Of a stretch of 10,513 bases of DNA, positions 1,881 to 10,484 are shown one piece after another (the stretch's first letter is position 1; each line of letters starts with the position of its first letter). The position numbers were made by a program, and so were the translations under genes. The DNA is from Chloroflexota bacterium. GTDB lineage: Bacteria > Chloroflexota > Dehalococcoidia > Dehalococcoidales > UBA3254. Location: assembly GCA_017860765.1 (NCBI GenBank), contig JAGDMY010000023.1, positions 1-10,513 on the forward strand. The letters run 5' to 3'. Under the pieces are notes generated by a model that saw nothing but the letters and a program-made list of their open reading frames with translations, had not been told where the DNA came from and searched no databases.

Positions 1881-1909
1881 ATGGTATAACAGAGATAGAT
1901 GTTTGTCAA
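1881..1909 (-). promoter_or_regulatory. Candidate promoter of the arsR-oxidase operon
   Basis: On the minus strand a perfect TTGACA (1909-1904) is followed after 17 bases by TACCAT (1886-1881), a weak -10. An alternative -10, TATAAT at 1865-1860, lacks a good -35 at the right distance. The predicted start of transcription falls inside the palindrome at 1853-1878. Confidence 0.45.
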
Positions 1910-1928
1910 GTTAAATTGGTGGTATATT
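1903..1928 (+). promoter_or_regulatory. Candidate promoter of the A2M gene, extended -10
   Basis: On the plus strand TGGTATATT (1920-1928) is an extended -10. TTGTCA (1903-1908) lies 14 bases upstream, shorter than ideal but tolerable with an extended -10. It overlaps the -35 of the divergent arsR promoter, so the two may compete for polymerase. The leader to the A2M start would be about 120 bases. Confidence 0.35.
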
Positions 1929-2054
1929 ACTTTAGGGTCATAATCCGCGATCAAGCCGACTTAAACATAACTTTTCGGGCCAAGGCACGTTATTACTATT
2001 AAGCCGGAACTCACCGGAGGTCAAATAATAGTTTTCCGGAAGCGAGGTAAAGAG

Positions 2055-5000
2055 ATGTCCAAGAAATTACTCACCCTAGCGGTTATCATTACCATAGCCC
2101 TGCTGGTCCCCTTTATCCCGGCCTGCAAACCGGCCCCCCTGGCCACGGCTTATACGGCGGTTATTCCGGCCATTTTGCAGGCAGGTAGCACGCAGCGGGT
2201 CTCAGTAGCTATCTTTGCGGGTGATACTCCCACCTCGGGAAAAGTAAATTTGACTTTGCGCAAGGATGGAAAAGAGATCGCTCAGGCCCAGGGTAGTATC
2301 CAGGGCAACGGCGAACTACAACTGGTAGTCCCCGATGTCGCCGAAGGCGATTACACCATCCAGGTGCAAGGCGGCAGTTTTGAGGATGAAGCACAGGTTA
2401 AAATAGCCAATAATTATGTGGTTTTCCTGGAAACAGATAAGCCTATCTATAAACCCGGCCAAACAATTAATATGCGGGTTATGACCCTGGACGCCGGACT
2501 GATGCCCGTCAGCGAAAGCGTAACCGTAGAAACGCTGGATGCTAAAGGGATAAAGATTTTCCGGGACGAGATTAAAACCGATGAATACGGCCTGGCCACC
2601 CTGACTTTGCCCATTTCCACAGAACCCAATCTGGGGACCTGGAAAATTAATGCCATCGCGGCTAAAGCCAAAACCGAAACGGATATAAAGGTAGAAGAAT
2701 ACGTCTTGCCCAAATATGAAGTCAAGGTCGATCTTCCCAAGGACTGGTTCCTGGTCAGTGAACCTATTAAAGGCAAGGTAACCGCCACCTATAGCTTCGG
2801 CAAGCCGGTGAAAGGCCAACTTGAAATAAAGGCGACCAAGTATGTCGGCACCTGGCAAAATTATGCCTCCTCCAAGCTGGCTATCGACGGCACCGCAGAG
2901 TTTACTGTCCCGGCTGCCCAGTACGTGGCCGGTGTTCCCGCTGCTCAAGGTAATGGCAATGTCAAATTGGAATTTATTGTCACCGAAGATTCCACCGGCT
3001 ATCAGGAAAAGACCGACAATCTGCTCACGGTAGCCCAATCTTCAGTGAGTTTGTCGATTATCCCATCAGGATCAACCTTTAAACCCGGTTTGCCCTATAG
3101 TTTTCTGGTCATCTCTGAGACTCCGGATAATCGCCTGATCGATGCTGATATTAAGGCCACCATTTCCTACCTGGATAAGAATTTTAAAGAAATCAAAAAG
3201 GAAAATAAGACCGCCGCCACCCAAAAGGGCAAAACTATTTTCGAAATAAATCCGCCCAATGAGAGCGTCGCGCTGACTATCAATTGCACTTCTCAGAACG
3301 CCGGCGCCACCAAGACCGTCGAGGCGGCTTATTCACCATCCGGCAACTTTATCCATCTGGAGCAGACCAGTGAAGGGACTCCCCAGATAGGCGGCGACCT
3401 TAAATTCTACGTCTTTTCTACTAAAGAAGCGACTAATTTCTATTATGAGGTCATCTCGCGGGGGACAGTCGTTTTCTCCAGCTATACTAAGGGTAACGAA
3501 ATCACGCTAAAGACCACACCCGCCATGGCCCCTTCCGCCAAGCTGCTGGTATATCAGATCCTCTCCAACGGCGAGGTAGCGGCTGACTATCTGCCCTTTA
3601 AGGTTGCCGCGCAATACCCTCAGAACGTTCAACTCAACCTCAGCATTTCAGAAGGCCAACCCGGAGATAATATCGATATTAATATCCTGACCGAGGGCCA
3701 GGCTGAGGTCGGTCTGGCGGCGGTGGATAAATCGGTCTTCATCCTGGCGGAAAACCGTATGAACCTGCAGCAGGTGTTTGATGAGCTGGAAAAGCTTTAT
3801 ATGAATCCCCAGGCCGAGCTGCACGAAGTCTCTATCTACAAGGGGATTCAGAATAGAGGCGCCAAGGAAGTGTTCCAGGGTGCTGGCGTAATTGTATTAA
3901 GCAACAAAAAGATACCCGAAGGCAAAAAAATCGAGTCACCAGTCCGCAACCAGGAGCTGGGCGGAATCCGTTTTGACGGGATGGCTGAAAAGGGAATCCC
4001 ACCCCCCATGGTGGCACCCATGCCTGCCGCTGCGGCTCCCTCTATGGCGCCTCAGGCCGGCTCTGGGTCCGGCCTGGCCGAAGTCCAGAGGGTGCGCCAG
4101 TTTTTCCCTGAGACCTGGATATGGGATGTGAAAAAGACCGATTCCAGCGGCAAGGTCTCCTTTAACAACGTCACCATACCCGATACTATTACCACCTGGA
4201 TGCTCAGGGCGGTAGCTTTATCCAAGACCAAAGGTCTGGGAGTTGCGGAAAACCAGCTCAAGGTTTTCCAACCATTCTTCCTATCTGTAGACCTGCCGTA
4301 CTCAGCCATCCGCGGTGAAGAATTTCCGGTTAAAATAGCCATTTACAACTATCTGAACCAGCCGCAAAACGTTCAGGTGCAGATTGAGCCCGCCGCCTGG
4401 TTCGACCTGCTGGACAGTGCCAGCAAAACTGTTGCGATCGAGGCTAATGATATCGGCGGCGTCCAATTCAACATTCGACCCACCAGATTGGGGAACGCTA
4501 ACGAGGTTAAAATAACGGCCCGCAGCCCACAGGCAGCCGATGCCGTAATTAAGAAGCTCATTATCGAGGCTGAAGGGGCACCCCGGGAGATAGTAAATAA
4601 TATCACTCTCTCTGACGGGAAAGTCAGCCAGATTTCTTTGGCAGTCCCGGAACCGGTTGTAGAAGACTCAGCACGGGCGCTTTTTGCCGTTACTTCGAGC
4701 TACCTGACCCAAACTATCGACGGGCTGGAATCTTTGATTCAAATGCCCTTCGGCTGCGGCGAACAGAATATGATAATCTTTGCCCCGGATGTCTACATCA
4801 GCAAGTACCTGCAGGACAGCGGACAGCTCAAACCGGAGATCATGGCTAAAGCTGAAAAACTGATGCTCACAGGCTACCAGAGAGAGCTGACCTACCGCCG
4901 CAATGACGGGAGCTTTTCGGCCTTCGGCCAGAGTGACAAAGAGGGCAGCCTCTGGCTAACCGCTTTCGTGCTAAAATGCTTCTCACAAGCCCAGGGCTTG

Positions 5001-6218
5001 ATTTACATTGATGACCAGGTGCTGAACCAGGCCAAATCCTGGATTCTCTCCCATCAAAATTCCGACGGATCATTCGATGCAGTCGGTTTTGTCCATCATC
5101 AGGAGATGCTGGGTGGGATCAAAGGCAAGGACGCTTTAACAGCTTACGTAGCGATTGCCCTGATGGAAGCTGGTGAAAAGAACGCTTCTTCCAGGGCTGT
5201 CAGCTATCTGGCAGGGCGATTGGACCAGACGGATGACCCTTATACTGTAGCCCTGATGACCTATGCCCTGGAGCTGGCCGGCAGCAATCAAGCCGAGACA
5301 GCCTATAACAAACTGATGAAGCTCGCGAAGGAAGATGAGAGCGGGCTGCACTGGGGCAGCCAGGATATTCTTCCGTTGGAGCCCTCCGCTCCGCAGCCGG
5401 GACTTAAGATGGCGCCCATGCCCATCAGGCCCATAGCTCAGACTACGGGAATTGAAACCACAGCTTATGCCACCCTGGCCCTCATTAAGCACGGTGACAA
5501 CCTCAATGCTTCTCGGGCGGCCAAATGGCTGGTCTCCAAACGCAATGCCAACGGGGGTTTTGGTTCTACCCAGGATACCGTTATGGCGCTTCAAGCCTTA
5601 ATCGAATATGCCACCGGGTCCAGAGCAGATGTTGATTTAACGATCAACATAGATTCTGACGGCACAAAACAGCAATTAAAAATCAATGCTCAAAACTTCG
5701 ATGTGTTGCAGATTGTGGAGGTTCCGGTAAACAGTACGCTGAAAATCAGCGTTTCCGGCAAGGGAGAAGCCATCGGTCAGATCGTACAGCGCTTCAATGT
5801 TCCTGAAGTCATCCAGGAAAAAAATGAGATTCTAAAAGTAGATGTCAAATACAATGCCGACGAAGTTGCCGTAAATGACGAGGTTAAAGTGGATGTCAGC
5901 CTGACATTCAACCCGCCGGAGCCGATGGAAGCTGGCATGGTAGTAATGGACATCGCAGTACCCACCGGATTTGCAGCTGTTAAAGAGTCCATCGATAAGA
6001 CCATAGCCGGACATCAAAACATAAAGCGCTATGACATTTCCGGCCGCAAGGTGATTTTCTATATCGAGAATATGCTCCCCGGCGATCAGGTCTCATTCAG
6101 TTTCATGGTTAAAGCGCTATACCCGGTTAAGGCGAAAGGCGTTGCATCTCAGGCGTACTCCTATTATAAACCCGAGATCAGCGCAGAGTCCCTGAGCCAG
6201 GATATCACCGTTAAATAA
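2055..6218 (+). CDS. Animal-like alpha-2-macroglobulin lipoprotein with CGEQ thioester
   Basis: A2M proteins trap or tag targets: bait cleavage triggers a conformational change and a buried Cys-Gln thioester bonds covalently. Residues 1-24 are a lipoprotein signal with lipobox IPAC, so the mature protein is anchored by Cys24. MG1 follows (about 30-110), then MG2 with ETDKPIYKPGQT (126-137), MG3 starting VEEYVLPKYEV (213), and MG5/6 with VGLAAVDKSV (about 552). A Pro/Ala/Met-rich bait region spans about 600-680. MG7 begins FFPETWIWD (683-691) and contains QPFF and PYSAIRGE. The thioester CGEQNM starts at Cys901. The TED spans about 890-1200, with His1015 in HHQEM and GGFGSTQDT near its end. 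A CUB-like part and a receptor-binding-like domain (about 1285-1387) complete it. At 1387 residues it is close to human A2M (about 1450 mature) and shorter than the E. coli type (about 1650). GAGG at 2044-2047 supports ATG 2055. It is monocistronic, ending at a terminator. Confidence 0.95.
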   Translation: MSKKLLTLAVIITIALLVPFIPACKPAPLATAYTAVIPAILQAGSTQRVSVAIFAGDTPTSGKVNLTLRKDGKEIAQAQGSIQGNGELQLVVPDVAEGDYTIQVQGGSFEDEAQVKIANNYVVFLETDKPIYKPGQTINMRVMTLDAGLMPVSESVTVETLDAKGIKIFRDEIKTDEYGLATLTLPISTEPNLGTWKINAIAAKAKTETDIKVEEYVLPKYEVKVDLPKDWFLVSEPIKGKVTATYSFGKPVKGQLEIKATKYVGTWQNYASSKLAIDGTAEFTVPAAQYVAGVPAAQGNGNVKLEFIVTEDSTGYQEKTDNLLTVAQSSVSLSIIPSGSTFKPGLPYSFLVISETPDNRLIDADIKATISYLDKNFKEIKKENKTAATQKGKTIFEINPPNESVALTINCTSQNAGATKTVEAAYSPSGNFIHLEQTSEGTPQIGGDLKFYVFSTKEATNFYYEVISRGTVVFSSYTKGNEITLKTTPAMAPSAKLLVYQILSNGEVAADYLPFKVAAQYPQNVQLNLSISEGQPGDNIDINILTEGQAEVGLAAVDKSVFILAENRMNLQQVFDELEKLYMNPQAELHEVSIYKGIQNRGAKEVFQGAGVIVLSNKKIPEGKKIESPVRNQELGGIRFDGMAEKGIPPPMVAPMPAAAAPSMAPQAGSGSGLAEVQRVRQFFPETWIWDVKKTDSSGKVSFNNVTIPDTITTWMLRAVALSKTKGLGVAENQLKVFQPFFLSVDLPYSAIRGEEFPVKIAIYNYLNQPQNVQVQIEPAAWFDLLDSASKTVAIEANDIGGVQFNIRPTRLGNANEVKITARSPQAADAVIKKLIIEAEGAPREIVNNITLSDGKVSQISLAVPEPVVEDSARALFAVTSSYLTQTIDGLESLIQMPFGCGEQNMIIFAPDVYISKYLQDSGQLKPEIMAKAEKLMLTGYQRELTYRRNDGSFSAFGQSDKEGSLWLTAFVLKCFSQAQGLIYIDDQVLNQAKSWILSHQNSDGSFDAVGFVHHQEMLGGIKGKDALTAYVAIALMEAGEKNASSRAVSYLAGRLDQTDDPYTVALMTYALELAGSNQAETAYNKLMKLAKEDESGLHWGSQDILPLEPSAPQPGLKMAPMPIRPIAQTTGIETTAYATLALIKHGDNLNASRAAKWLVSKRNANGGFGSTQDTVMALQALIEYATGSRADVDLTINIDSDGTKQQLKINAQNFDVLQIVEVPVNSTLKISVSGKGEAIGQIVQRFNVPEVIQEKNEILKVDVKYNADEVAVNDEVKVDVSLTFNPPEPMEAGMVVMDIAVPTGFAAVKESIDKTIAGHQNIKRYDISGRKVIFYIENMLPGDQVSFSFMVKALYPVKAKGVASQAYSYYKPEISAESLSQDITVK

Positions 6219-6251
6219 AAGTTGATAATTAAAGTTTGAAGATTAGAGGAT

Positions 6252-6300
6252 GAGGGGGAGAGCCAGCCAAAAGAGTGGAGCTCTTCCCCTTCTTCTTATT
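6252..6300 (+). terminator. Rho-independent terminator after the A2M gene
   Basis: The arm GGGGGAGAGC (6254-6263) pairs with GCTCTTCCCC (6280-6289), giving 10 pairs including one G-U. The stem can extend by A-T and G-U pairs at its base. The loop is 16 bases. A T-rich tract (TTCTTCTTATTTAT) follows directly. It lies 34 bases past the A2M stop and separates that gene from the downstream regulator. Confidence 0.7.
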
Positions 6301-6350
6301 TATCATTGCTTCCGCCATACCCTGTGATGCATAAAAGATTCGGTAATCGC

Positions 6351-6392
6351 TTGGTGCAAATGCTATATAAATCTATATAAATAATGTATACT
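6351..6392 (+). promoter_or_regulatory. AT-rich promoter region of the Crp/Fnr-family gene
   Basis: TTGGTG (6351-6356) lies 17 bases before TATATA (6374-6379), which overlaps TATAAA (6376-6381). A second -10 candidate, TATACT (6387-6392), lies only 15 bases before the start codon and would give an almost leaderless transcript. Which of the two is used cannot be settled by eye. A small dyad GATT-CGGT-AATC (6337-6348) sits just upstream of the -35. Confidence 0.45.
6363..6382 (+). repeat. Perfect 10-bp tandem repeat in a promoter
   Basis: CTATATAAAT occurs twice back to back (6363-6372 and 6373-6382). The period is close to one DNA helical turn, so both copies face the same side. It covers the spacer and -10 of the candidate promoter for the downstream regulator. 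It may be a duplicated -10 or a regulator site, or a slippage product in AT-rich DNA. Confidence 0.75.
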
Positions 6393-6407
6393 ATTATTGA
6401 AAATTAA

Positions 6408-7109
6408 ATGGCTATTGAATTAGAGCAATTAAAAACCATCAACTATTTCACCGGCTTGAACGCCGAAGAACTTGAGTCGATCAAGAAATATATCACGGAG
6501 AGGCCGGTCGAAAAAGGCGAGATATTTCTCTTTGAAGGAGACTGGTCAGACTATTTGTATTTTTTGATTGCGGGCCTGGTGAAAGTTTATAAGACTTCCC
6601 AGAATGGAAAAGAGCAAATTCTTCATATTGCTCCTCCGGGGGAATCCTTAAACGACGTTTCCACTTTTGATGGCGGTACCAACCAGGCGAGCATGGTGGC
6701 GATGACTCCCGTCCACCTCTATGCTATTCGTAAGGATGACCTGCGCATCATCCTCCAGGACCATGCCAGGATTTACGTTAACATTTTAAAAGCCCTGGCT
6801 TACCGCATCCGGCGCGATTCCAACCTGGTGGAAGAGCTCTCCTCAACTCAGGTTATGGGCAGGCTAGCCAAGCTGCTTCTCGGCAAGTATGCCGGCGAAG
6901 AGGCCACCGTTGGGCTCTGGCTTACTCAGAAGGATATGGCCAGCATGATAGGCACCTGCAGGGAGGTAGTCAACAGGTCGCTTAAAATTATGGAGGAAAA
7001 AGGGGCCATCAGGCTGGGACGGCATCGGGTGATTGTACTCAAAAAGGATATTCTGGCAGATATGGCTAAAGAGACAGTGGACACCACTCCAAAATACCTC
7101 CAGCCCTGA
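6408..7109 (+). CDS. Crp/Fnr-family transcriptional regulator
   Basis: This 233-residue protein has the family's usual length. Residues about 12-125 form a cyclic-nucleotide-binding-type beta-roll (VEKGEIFLFEGDWSDYLYFLIAGLVKVYK region). A long dimer helix follows (about 125-150). A Crp-type helix-turn-helix lies at about 170-210 (LTQKDMASMIGTCREVVNRSLK), then a wing. The phosphate-binding cassette region reads GGTNQASMVAM and lacks the Arg-Ser/Thr pair that binds cAMP in E. coli CRP. There is no N-terminal cysteine cluster as in FNR. The signal is therefore neither clearly cAMP nor an iron-sulfur cluster. The start at 6408 is preceded by an in-frame TAA at 6405 and has no Shine-Dalgarno site, so initiation is weak or near-leaderless. 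It has its own promoter and lies upstream of the TRAP operon, a plausible target. Confidence 0.9.
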   Translation: MAIELEQLKTINYFTGLNAEELESIKKYITERPVEKGEIFLFEGDWSDYLYFLIAGLVKVYKTSQNGKEQILHIAPPGESLNDVSTFDGGTNQASMVAMTPVHLYAIRKDDLRIILQDHARIYVNILKALAYRIRRDSNLVEELSSTQVMGRLAKLLLGKYAGEEATVGLWLTQKDMASMIGTCREVVNRSLKIMEEKGAIRLGRHRVIVLKKDILADMAKETVDTTPKYLQP

Positions 7110-7221
7110 TTGCCGTTAGGCCATCCTCAATTTTTCGGGTTTCCCTATTTTACCCGGCACCGCATTACTCTTTATGTCAGCTTACTCGTAGTCAGAGTCG
7201 CCATCCTCGGGTTTGGCTTAC

Positions 7222-7251
7222 TTGACAGTGATTTTACGAGAGTGCTACAAT
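7222..7251 (+). promoter_or_regulatory. Strong sigma70-type promoter of the TRAP operon
   Basis: TTGACA (7222-7227, perfect -35) and TACAAT (7246-7251, five of six -10 bases) are 18 bases apart. Transcription would begin near 7258, leaving a leader of about 115 bases before dctP. The gap between the regulator and dctP (7110-7371) holds little else apart from the small dyad at 7268. Confidence 0.7.
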
Positions 7252-7267
7252 TGGCCATACTTATCTC

Positions 7268-7279
7268 GAGCGGACGCTC
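7268..7279. repeat. Short inverted repeat just after the TRAP promoter
   Basis: GAGCG and CGCTC flank a 2-base centre, placed about 10 bases downstream of the predicted start of transcription. It could be an operator half-site pair or a small leader hairpin. The 5-base arms are short enough to arise by chance. Confidence 0.3.
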
Positions 7280-7357
7280 AAGCTGAATTTATCTTGCCGG
7301 TAGACTCTCTATTTATTTCAATACCCACCAGATCAGGAGTTGCATAGCGCAAATTAT

Positions 7358-7365
7358 AGAGGAGG
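7358..7365 (+). promoter_or_regulatory. Near-perfect ribosome binding site of dctP
   Basis: AGAGGAGG lies 6 bases before ATG 7372. It is the strongest Shine-Dalgarno site in the window and fits high expression of a binding protein. Confidence 0.85.
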
Positions 7366-7371
7366 TTTTGA

Positions 7372-8544
7372 ATGCGGCACAATAGATTGACCTACGCTAT
7401 TCTAACAACGGTCTCCCTGGTACTTGTCCTGGCATTTCTCGTCGCCTGCAGCGGGTCAACGCCCGCTCCTACATCAGCTCCCCCCACTGCTAAACCCCCG
7501 GCCACTACCCAGGCACCACCGCCAACTTCGTCCCCACCAGCAGCTGCCGGGGCGATTAAATTGACCGCTTCCTGCTACCTGCCCCCGGCCCATTTCCTGT
7601 CTTCGATGATGGGTGATATGATGAAGGAGATACAGACTCTTTCCAGCGGCAAAGTGGAAATTACCTATGCTGCCGGCGGTTCTATTCTTACAGGTCCGAA
7701 AACCGCAGACGGCATTGAGCAGGGCCTGGCCGATATCGGTCTATCCCATATCGGCTACACACCGGGTCGTTTCCCGGTTACCGAAGGGGTCGACCTCCCG
7801 GTCGGTTACTCCTCCAGCTGGGTGGGAACCAATGTGGCACTGGACTACCTGGCTAAATTCCAGCCCAAAGAATGGGACAAATTCCATATCTTATTAGCCG
7901 ATGGCGGCACGACCGCCTCGGTCAATATGGCCAAAAGCGCCATCCGTAAACTCGAGGACTTCAAAGGCAAGACCATGAGAGGCGCCGGTGAAGTGGCAGA
8001 TGCGCTGACTGCTCTGGGCGCTACTCCGCGCGATATTCCCATGTCCGAGGTCTATGAAGCCATGTCCAAGGGCACCATCGACGGTCTTCTGGTCGGTGCT
8101 GAATCATTAAAAAGCTTTAAGCTGGCCGATGTTACCAAGTACACCACCTACGCCCCATCCATCGGGAACCAGTACCTGTTCTATATTGCCATGAATGGCA
8201 ACAAATGGAAGGGCCTGACGCCCGACCTCCAGAAAATTTTCACCGATGTCGCTGCTAAATACCAGCCTCAATCAGCCTTAAAATGGAACGAAGTCAATGT
8301 GCTGGGCTTCCAGCAGGCAATCTCCCAGGGCGCCGAGTATATCACCCTGCCGCCGGACGAAGCCGCCCGCTGGAAAACCGCGGTCCAACCGGTTATGGAC
8401 AACTACGTGAAGAAGATGGTAGGCAAAGGCTTCACCGAACAACAGGCTAAAGATATGATTGCCTTTATTAAAGACCGCATGGCTTACTGGGACCAGCAAG
8501 CCATCGCCCAGAACATCCCGTCTGAAGACGCGATGAAGAAATAA
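7372..8544 (+). CDS. dctP: TRAP transporter substrate-binding lipoprotein DctP
   Basis: This 390-residue extracytoplasmic receptor captures an organic acid and delivers it to DctQM. Residues 1-26 are a lipoprotein signal with lipobox LVAC (Cys26). A Pro/Ala/Thr/Ser-rich linker (27-62) holds the domain off the membrane, as in cells where binding proteins are tethered. From residue 63 the DctP fold is clear: a GKVEITYAAGGSILTG region, then FKGKTMRGAGEVADALTALGA with Arg203. In DctP proteins the arginine at this place usually pairs with the substrate carboxylate. IPMSEVYEAMSKGTIDGLL follows, the family signature before the hinge. The ligand cannot be assigned. It is the first gene of dctPQM, 105 bases before dctQ. 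A strong promoter, a strong ribosome binding site and a downstream hairpin all suggest it is made in excess over the membrane subunits. Confidence 0.93.
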   Translation: MRHNRLTYAILTTVSLVLVLAFLVACSGSTPAPTSAPPTAKPPATTQAPPPTSSPPAAAGAIKLTASCYLPPAHFLSSMMGDMMKEIQTLSSGKVEITYAAGGSILTGPKTADGIEQGLADIGLSHIGYTPGRFPVTEGVDLPVGYSSSWVGTNVALDYLAKFQPKEWDKFHILLADGGTTASVNMAKSAIRKLEDFKGKTMRGAGEVADALTALGATPRDIPMSEVYEAMSKGTIDGLLVGAESLKSFKLADVTKYTTYAPSIGNQYLFYIAMNGNKWKGLTPDLQKIFTDVAAKYQPQSALKWNEVNVLGFQQAISQGAEYITLPPDEAARWKTAVQPVMDNYVKKMVGKGFTEQQAKDMIAFIKDRMAYWDQQAIAQNIPSEDAMKK

Positions 8545-8572
8545 AGCTTTAAAAGAAAAAATTGTAGTGGAT

Positions 8573-8616
8573 TGATTCCTGGAGAGGCTCGCTATATGCG
8601 TCTTCTCCAGGAATCA
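8573..8616 (+). promoter_or_regulatory. Strong intercistronic hairpin between dctP and dctQ
   Basis: GATTCCTGGAGA (8574-8585) is perfectly complementary to TCTCCAGGAATC (8604-8615). With flanking T-A, G-U and G-C pairs the stem reaches 15 pairs around a 14-base loop. No T-tract follows, so it is a poor intrinsic terminator. Hairpins in this place usually protect the upstream message from 3' exonucleases, favouring the binding protein over the membrane subunits. Structure is seen directly; function is inferred. Confidence 0.75.
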
Positions 8617-8649
8617 TGGTAATTATTCGATTGAGCTAGAAAGCAATAT

Positions 8650-9183
8650 ATGCAAAATTCCAGCGCCACATCGCCAAGATCAATATTCAGCATCGCCTTG
8701 AGCGGCTTCGGCAAATTCAGCTATCTGATAAGCATGTGGTTCGAGCGCATTGCCATGGTTGCCATTGTCGGCATTATAGCGGCCACCCTCGTTGACGTGG
8801 TAGGAGACAAGCTGCTTAATAAACCCCTCTCGGCCGGTACGGAAGTGGTCTATTTCCTTCAGGTGATTGCCATCGCAGCAGCTCTGGCTTTTACCAAGAT
8901 AGACGGAAAACATATTCGTCTGGAGTTTGTAGATAGCCTCCCCAGAAGGCTTAAAGGTGCCTTCAATCTTCTTACAGCTATCCTGGGATTAGGGCTATTT
9001 ATCATCCTGAGCTGGAAAAGCTATGAGTATGCTCAAGCTTTAAATGCGGCCAACGAGGTAACAGCTGCCTCCAGAATTCCCATCTACCCCTTTGTGATAT
9101 GGGTAGGCATTTGCTGTATTCCCCTCTGCCTGGTACTGATAACAGATCTGTTTAACTCTGCCAAAGAGGTATTTTGGAAATGA
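8650..9183 (+). CDS. dctQ: TRAP transporter small membrane subunit DctQ
   Basis: The protein has 177 residues and four predicted membrane helices (about 34-52, 64-83, 105-123 and 145-167), the standard DctQ layout. The cytoplasmic loop after helix 2 carries DGKHIRLEF (85-94), matching the conserved G-x-H-[IV]-x motif of the family. DctQ binds DctM and completes the membrane complex that receives substrate from DctP. Residues 1-24 are a polar, Ser-rich tail of ordinary length. The ribosome binding site is weak (AGAAAG at 8638-8643), so an internal Met29 start is possible but would cut into the helix-1 boundary. Its stop codon overlaps the dctM start, so the two are translationally coupled. Confidence 0.9.
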   Translation: MQNSSATSPRSIFSIALSGFGKFSYLISMWFERIAMVAIVGIIAATLVDVVGDKLLNKPLSAGTEVVYFLQVIAIAAALAFTKIDGKHIRLEFVDSLPRRLKGAFNLLTAILGLGLFIILSWKSYEYAQALNAANEVTAASRIPIYPFVIWVGICCIPLCLVLITDLFNSAKEVFWK

Positions 9184-10484
9184 GCCCTCTGATTATCGGC
9201 GGCATCGGTATCTGCGTAATGCTCATCCTGTTTGGTATCGGTATGCCGATTTCTTTCGCTATGGCACTGGCTGGTATGGCCGGCTTTGCTTATTTGGCTT
9301 CACCCGCCGCCGGTTTCAGTTTGCTGCCCAGGGATATCTATGAGCAAATTGCTTCTTATCCCCTTAGCGTGATTCCGATGTTTGTTATGATGGGCTGCTA
9401 TGCCTTCGCCTCAGGAATCGGTAGAAAGCTTTTCAGCACGGCTTACGCCATTCTGGGGCACCTGCCGGGCGGATTGACCATTGCTACGATAGCCGCTTCC
9501 ACAGGTTTCGGAGCTATCTGTGGTTCGACTTCGGCCACCTGCGCCACCATTGGTAAAGTAGCCCTTCCCGAGATGAAAAAATACGGCTATCAGGACTGGC
9601 TGTCAACCGGTACGGTGACGGTGGCTGGCGGCCTGGGCATTATTATCCCGCCGAGTACCACTTTCATTGTCTATGGGATACAGACCGAGCAGTCCATCGG
9701 CAAGTTATTTATTAGCGGCATAATACCCGGTATCATCCTGGCTATCCTTTTCATGATCACAGTTTATTTTATCTGCAGACGTTTCCCCAATGCCGGTCCG
9801 GCCGGCCCTTCAACCACTTTGGGACAAAAGTTGGCTTCCCTGAAAGGCCTTATTGATACTATTATCTTATTCATTATCACCATCGGCGGTCTATTCGCCG
9901 GCATTTTCAGTCCCACCCAGGCCGGGGCCATCGGCTCCGCTGGAGCTCTGGTTATCGGCTTAATTAACCGGGAACTAACCTGGCAAAAATTTGTTGACGC
10001 CACCAAAGAGGGATTACGCTTATCCTGCATGATTTTGCTGCTCATCGCTGGCGCTACTGTCTTCGGCCACTTCATCACCCGGACGACGATGCCTATTCTC
10101 CTGGCCAACTGGGTGGGCACTCTGAATGTTGCTCCGATAGTGGTGATGATATTACTTATCGTTTTCTGGTTTATCCTGGGGTGCTTTATTGACGCCATGG
10201 CTATTATTGTACTGTTGATGCCGATTGTATACCCTCTAATCACCAATCTGGGCTTCGACCCGATATGGTTCGGGGTTATCGTGACTGTCCTCAGCATGAC
10301 GGCCGTGGTGACTCCGCCGGTAGGGGTAAACGCTTACGTGGTCAAGGGAATCGCCAAAGATATACCTCTGCAAACCATATTCAAAGGCGTGATGCCCTTT
10401 ATGATCCCCTTCTTTGCGGGCATACTTATCTTAGTAGCCTTTCCCGAATTATCCATCTTCTTGACCCGCTTTATAACTTACTAA
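9180..10484 (+). CDS. dctM: TRAP transporter large permease DctM
   Basis: This 434-residue ion-coupled permease moves the substrate across the membrane, driven by a sodium or proton gradient. It is hydrophobic throughout, with roughly a dozen membrane segments. Family signatures are clear: a GSTSATCATIGKVALPEM stretch and then GGLGIIIPPSTTFIVYG form the first conserved half. PTQAGAIGSAGAL starts the second half, and FIDAMAIIVLLMP and VVTPPVGVNAYVV form its re-entrant core. I start it at ATG 9180, which forms an ATGA overlap with the dctQ stop and has GAGG at 9166-9169. An in-frame TTG at 9174 would add two residues but is less likely. It completes dctPQM; the sequence does not identify the substrate. 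Confidence 0.95.
   Translation: MSPLIIGGIGICVMLILFGIGMPISFAMALAGMAGFAYLASPAAGFSLLPRDIYEQIASYPLSVIPMFVMMGCYAFASGIGRKLFSTAYAILGHLPGGLTIATIAASTGFGAICGSTSATCATIGKVALPEMKKYGYQDWLSTGTVTVAGGLGIIIPPSTTFIVYGIQTEQSIGKLFISGIIPGIILAILFMITVYFICRRFPNAGPAGPSTTLGQKLASLKGLIDTIILFIITIGGLFAGIFSPTQAGAIGSAGALVIGLINRELTWQKFVDATKEGLRLSCMILLLIAGATVFGHFITRTTMPILLANWVGTLNVAPIVVMILLIVFWFILGCFIDAMAIIVLLMPIVYPLITNLGFDPIWFGVIVTVLSMTAVVTPPVGVNAYVVKGIAKDIPLQTIFKGVMPFMIPFFAGILILVAFPELSIFLTRFITY

Follow-up and report, generated by a model that had tools for sequence, protein, structure and literature searches.

The DNA examined here, a 10,513-nucleotide stretch from a Chloroflexota bacterium (contig JAGDMY010000023.1 of assembly GCA_017860765.1; hereafter the window), carries an open reading frame (ORF) at 2055-6218 on the forward strand whose translation matches the Pfam macroglobulin (MG) domains MG2, MG3 and MG4, the bait-region domain (BRD), the A2M domain, the thioester domain (TED) and the receptor-binding domain (RBD), each above its cut-off. 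With its MG domains, bait-region domain, CxEQ motif within the TED and MG8/RBD, this protein of 1387 residues has the features that define the alpha-2-macroglobulin superfamily; ANATO and C345C are absent from the eight Pfam families matched (E <= 0.001). Its relatives in the PDB by sequence are A2M, CD109, A2ML1, TEP1, C4 and C3, and the listed relatives, where named, are called CD109 antigen (JGI) or alpha-2-macroglobulin or MG2-domain (NCBI), with Chloroflexota, Dehalococcoidia and Dehalococcoidales as their named sources; these names, together with the TED tree, point to a probable Chloroflexota host. Judged by its sequence, the ORF product is an animal-type macroglobulin. The residue of main interest is His1015 in the TED.

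Positions 5091-5105 of the window encode V1013-H1014-H1015-Q1016-E1017, and the initial annotation had claimed here a catalytic histidine of the kind found in complement C3 and C4B. Cys901 of the GCGEQ motif precedes His1015 by 114 residues; in C3 and A2M the matching residue lies 116 residues after the thioester Cys, in C4A 115 and in CD109 114. The PDB sequences at this site read VIHQEMIGG in C3, VIHRSMQGG in C4B, VLDRSMQGG in C4A, LLNNAIKGG in A2M and VIHSELQGG in CD109, in agreement with the C3 motif, the spacing of about 116 and the His of C4B and Asp of C4A given in the annotation. The counterpart of the C3 residue is the second histidine of the pair, not His1014. In a 68-row alignment of TEDs, the animal and GCGEQ-type rows have no gaps between the D/N-G-x-F motif and the His column, the sole exception being the CD109 protein P0239, with one inserted residue. 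The PDB letters and the alignment make His1015 the positional equivalent of the C3/C4B His and not of the A2M Asn; this first observation is confirmed, and extends to a trait of the whole family. AlphaFold gives the loop low confidence, with a predicted local distance difference test score (pLDDT) below 50 in a 711-residue model and an average of 59 over a 10-residue block of the loop in a TED-only model.

Conservation was assessed in 43 rows that we chose from the fetched material (the window, 29 proteins and 13 loci). His1015 is invariant in all 43, as are R681, F684, P685, C901, G902, E903, Q904, G1020, G1021, Y1368, Y1370 and Y1371, whereas residue 1014 is His in 32 of 43; the match at His1015 is therefore, on this sequence evidence, not due to chance. 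Residue 1017, at the place of the Glu in the HQEM of C3, is Glu in 32 rows, Asp in 10 and Gly in one. As many TED columns are invariant too, conservation alone is no proof of catalysis.

The histidine is present in 120/120 of the closest proteins listed (the best 120 of 3160, the window's own included; 119 were scored by pattern and P0032, which reads VIHQEMLGS, by eye). Among 80 loci fetched from genomes, His is present in each of the 77 that cover the position, which L042, L049 and L064 do not reach. This set is partly selected, since GFVHHQEM was among the six fetch patterns; genomes were therefore scanned with Pfam PF07678, without selection for His. Matches occurred in 29 of 151 genomes from the phylum of G001 (Chloroflexota), 42 of 99 from the order of G007 (Methanococcoides), 16 of 68 from the phylum of G010 (Hydrogenedentota), 13 of 14 from that of G011 (Omnitrophota), 5 of 296 from that of G004 (Actinobacteria) and 35 of 246 from that of G012 (Archaeoglobaceae). 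These matches take in other TED proteins and, since the family also matches in Bacillus subtilis, we presume that terpene cyclases are among them. The scans yielded 122 loci (L082-L203), drawn from part of the matches. His was found in 53/53 GCGEQ-type loci from bacteria and archaea, several of them already within the 77-locus count, and in 22/22 GCFEQ-type loci, each with x-Glu after the His (L143 and L148 are fragments of the same gene). The remaining 47 loci comprise E. coli-like, YPHGCPEQ-like and partial sequences and others without CxEQ in the frames that were read. At the His column, 11 of the 12 E. coli-type rows of the 68-row alignment show a gap; the twelfth has an Asp, within a stretch that is poorly aligned.

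The GCFEQ loci (L133-L143, L148, L158, L162-L170) form a second bacterial class, with open frames of mostly about 1630-1940 residues, His and Glu at the C3 place, and an RxxFPET plug and C-terminal YxYY in the 17 loci tested. The archaeal TED proteins L193, L194, L195, L197 and L198 have YPHGCPEQ and no HxE-GG loop in the printed stretch. The macroglobulin gene is carried by named strains of methane-producing archaea, Methanococcoides alaskense DSM 17273 and Methanolobus psychrotolerans YSF-03; its presence in archaea is therefore not only a binning artefact, and study in culture is feasible. No account of the His in prokaryotes appears in the titles or abstract openings of the top-ranked literature matches, a search with subscription journals mostly outside its coverage, and a word search of the E. 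coli A2M structure paper (PMC4498604) did not find "histidine". The distribution suggests, at the level of sequence, that attack chemistry based on this His is not restricted to animals.

The invariant R681, F684 and P685 correspond to the RxxFP-type bait plug described for A2ML1 (PMC9156758). A loose plug pattern, R-x-x-[FYLW]-[PR]-[ED], is present in 40/40 GCGEQ-type loci (of 53), 17/17 GCFEQ-type loci (of 22) and 11/21 E. coli-type loci, and the last figure means that the plug alone is not class-specific. The YxYY pattern occurs in 39/40, 17/17 and 1/21 of these loci, respectively, and was not found in two CD109 proteins, P0121 and P0239. Human CD109 (P0121) has the plug RKHFP; a pattern search of P0239 found none. 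The segment preceding the plug differs from relative to relative, and in the window protein Pro, Ala, Gly and Met abound in it. A lipobox-like start, scored with a permissive pattern, opens 92 of 98 full-length listed proteins, the window's included. The architecture, the thioester motif, the plug motif with its conservation, and the position and family-wide conservation of His1015 are all read directly from these sequences. The tyrosines near the C-terminus may cap the thioester, a role known from C3.

Table 1. Features of the macroglobulin gene in the window, with residue numbers of the encoded protein.
Feature	Coordinates	Strand	Basis
Alpha-2-macroglobulin family protein, CD109-like, 1387 aa	2055..6218	+	ORF, Pfam, PDB relatives
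Signal peptide, lipobox-like end (IPAC24), predicted lipid anchor	2055..2126	+	Read from sequence
MG2 domain, residues 123-210	2421..2684	+	PF01835, E 2.7e-19
MG3 domain, residues 215-287	2697..2915	+	PF17791, E 1.8e-14
MG4 domain, residues 340-419	3072..3311	+	PF17789, E 1.8e-5, 25.3 bits against cut-off of 24.7
Bait-region domain, residues 435-564	3357..3746	+	PF07703, E 1.4e-28
Variable Pro/Ala/Gly/Met-rich stretch, likely bait region, residues 618-678	3906..4088	+	Varies among relatives; placement inferred
RQFFP (681-685), counterpart of A2ML1 bait-region plug Arg730/Phe733/Pro734	4095..4109	+	R, F and P invariant 43/43
A2M domain (MG7), residues 687-776	4113..4382	+	PF00207, E 7.5e-30
Thioester domain (TED), residues 883-1185	4701..5609	+	
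Thioester motif C901-G-E-Q904	4755..4766	+	Invariant 43/43
VHHQEMLGG loop (1013-1021)	5091..5117	+	Sequence and alignment
His1015, counterpart of C3/C4B/CD109 catalytic His	5097..5099	+	PDB letters, alignment, conservation
Receptor-binding (MG8) domain, residues 1292-1378	5928..6188	+	PF07677, E 1.2e-15
Y1368-S-Y-Y1371, possible aromatic cap over thioester	6156..6167	+	Three Tyr invariant 43/43

Upstream of the macroglobulin, on the opposite strand (3-1954), lie genes for an FAD-linked oxidase and an ArsR-type regulator; downstream (6408-10484) are a Crp/Fnr-type regulator and then a TRAP transporter set, dctP, dctQ and dctM, with no conserved link to the macroglobulin. An all-against-all comparison of ORFs from the window and the 80 loci, of which many have short flanks, revealed no shared partner gene: the A2M cluster covers 79 of 81 loci, the next largest covers 13, and none of the window's neighbours is seen in more than two other loci. 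Neither an Rfam nor a tandem-repeat scan produced a match in the window, and promoter- and terminator-like sites in 1900-7500 occur at close to the shuffled number.

Experiments on animal proteins give insight into what this residue may do. A2ML1 carries a complement-type His (PMC7864068), which the A2ML1 papers treat as a complement trait present in A2ML1 "in contrast to other known" macroglobulin inhibitors (PMC7864068, PMC9156758). This residue, His1084, enables A2ML1 to react with glycerol, both the wild type and H1084N react with glycine, and A2ML1 inhibits proteases, requiring the His to conjugate and inhibit acetylated thermolysin (PMC7864068). The N1088H mutant of A2M gains some glycerol reactivity, with no significant extra protease conjugation via hydroxyls, and is expressed mostly in a collapsed form (PMC7864068). 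In the snail, CD109, TEP2, TEP4 and C3-2 have His, TEP1 has Asp and the A2Ms have Ser or Asn (PMC7016707). The His therefore marks the CD109/TEP/C3/A2ML1 state and not complement as such: CD109, A2ML1 and snail CD109, TEP2 and TEP4 have it, and it is the usual residue in the prokaryotic rows examined. The predicted preference for sugars or hydroxyl surfaces over protein amines does not follow either, as A2ML1 with its His uses both glycine and glycerol and inhibits proteases. The functional interpretation in the initial annotation is thus partly supported; the C3-like position holds, with Glu or Asp mostly at residue 1017, while complement function is not supported, with no ANATO or C345C match and no conserved partner gene found.

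We propose, with a probability of roughly 60%, that the protein is a single-chain macroglobulin anchored in the membrane and acting in the manner of CD109 or A2ML1, with hydroxyls, amines or water as acyl acceptors. The anatomy of the protein (lipobox, variable bait, conserved plug, no ANATO or C345C) favours such a trap, and with neither an ANATO/C345C match nor a conserved neighbour found, we prefer a protease trap whose target chemistry is widened. We infer that the protein is lipid-anchored and forms its thioester, that it acts through an acyl-imidazole, and that a protease is its main target. Cleavage of the exposed bait region by a protease would let go of the RxxFP plug and allow the TED to swing out; His1015 is then predicted to attack the Cys901-Gln904 thioester, giving an acyl-imidazole and a free Cys thiolate. 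The acyl-imidazole would pass its acyl group to a hydroxyl or amine close by, as a rule on the cutting protease, or be quenched by water within about a second, so that His1015 may both broaden the usable targets and restrict stray labelling. Tagging of surfaces is a less likely alternative.

That the TED is moved mainly onto sugars or hydroxyl surfaces, acting as a complement-like tag on foreign cells or as a glue that holds the producer to a surface, appears unlikely. The pairing of His with Glu or Asp as in the HQE of C3, and the closeness of C3 and TEP1 to the top of the structural matches, would fit this role. Chloroflexota have a single-membrane cell plan, and the lipobox points to a lipoprotein that is likely to be surface-exposed, which would suit it as well. 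The Pfam and neighbourhood results given above stand against it, as does A2ML1, whose His does not stand in the way of protease trapping (PMC7864068). We consider it quite improbable that His1015 is retained for thioester formation or native-state stability, with a thioester that prefers amines as in A2M. The residue does sit amid many invariant TED residues, and the collapse of A2M N1088H implies that the position affects folding (PMC7864068); animal members nevertheless vary here among His, Asn, Asp and Ser (PDB letters; PMC7016707), and two distinct prokaryotic classes retain the His, in most cases with Glu or Asp at the second residue after it. A periplasmic inhibitor of the E. coli type (ECAM), paired with PBP1c, is very improbable: the two proteins belong to one superfamily and protease inhibition by ECAM has been demonstrated (PMC7864068, PMC9156758), but ECAM has YGCLEQT and a gap at the His column, pbpC adjoins yfhM in E. 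coli while the window has no pbpC-type gene, and the 12 E. coli-type rows stand apart as a group of their own (support 100/100). Identity with ECAM or the type I bacterial A2Ms was accordingly rejected, as their YGC[LVI]EQT motif, absence of the His loop and pbpC neighbour are not what the locus displays.

In the TED tree the animals fall among the GCGEQ-type prokaryotes, in one group with two archaeal rows and those of Chloroflexota and Actinomycetota (support 97/93); leaving out the E. coli-type rows keeps this grouping (98/95). In a longer alignment, where CD109 proteins are the only animals, these join Chloroflexota and Actinomycetota (100/98). A prokaryote-only clade still withstands the AU test (p 0.286 for the TED, 0.121 for the longer alignment and 0.224 without E. 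coli-type rows). Animal sampling is thin, with four CD109 and one each of A2M, C3 and C4A, and the trees have long branches. L143 and L145, with no usable TED, were dropped from the TED alignment; the longer alignment is without L040, L041, L075, L152, L154, L156, L157 and L158, which are too short for it, and without the E. coli-type rows, A2M, C3 and C4A. In the TED tree the prokaryotic branch closest to the animals is the Archaeoglobaceae macroglobulin (L075:6001-9756), a weakly supported placement (93/72), and L041, labelled Methanosarcinales, falls among Chloroflexota and may be mis-binned or a recent transfer. These trees are compatible with gene movement from prokaryotes to animals or the reverse. 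The ancestral family member is held to have been CD109-like and to have arisen in animals (PMC9156758), and the two solved bacterial A2Ms, which are structurally distinct, are thought to derive from animals (PMC7864068, PMC9156758). We tentatively raise the possibility, itself doubtful, that the hydroxyl-transfer chemistry of complement is a prokaryotic invention, with the His-bearing CD109-like form widespread in archaea and bacteria and the founding A2M/complement gene of animals coming from the Chloroflexota/Actinomycetota/Archaeoglobaceae side. If so, the Asn of A2M and the Asp of C4A would be later losses, and the usual account would be reversed. A large prokaryotic class with animal-type architecture and the His offers a way to test hydroxyl-reactive protease trapping outside animals, and the direction of gene movement.

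Comparison with known systems brings out the likeness to CD109. Archaeal A2M homologues are not new as such, since 27 proteins from 24 genomes, among them several Methanomicrobia and one named Methanolobus, have been described as similar to bacterial A2M, some of them with a probable bacterial origin (PMC8416519); these are TED proteins with CxEQ, as here, and the available part of that report mentions neither the His nor a likeness to CD109. E. coli YfhM and the Salmonella type I A2M share the bait region, thioester and TED superfamily, but differ in having CLEQT, no His loop, a pbpC partner and two extra N-terminal MG domains (PMC9156758). Complement C3 and C4B have the His at the same place, C3 also within HQEM, but the window protein lacks detectable ANATO and C345C domains and conserved partners. 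Human A2ML1 (PDB 7q1y) differs in being a secreted animal protein. The window protein does not lie inside the animal CD109 clade, the animal rows forming their own clade in all trees, and it has the YxYY not found in P0121 and P0239. GPI anchors are not expected in bacteria. Membrane anchoring is shared with CD109 as an idea, through a GPI anchor in CD109, which also has a furin site (PMC7960916), and a lipobox-like start here. Human CD109 (PDB 8s3o, 9fx2) is the best Foldseek match and has the same domain order, GCGEQ, a VIH-x-E loop, the spacing of 114 and RxxFPETW after the bait; the VIHSEL-type His/Glu loop of the CD109-like branch is matched by VHHQEML in the window protein, and its RxxFP plug by RQFFP.
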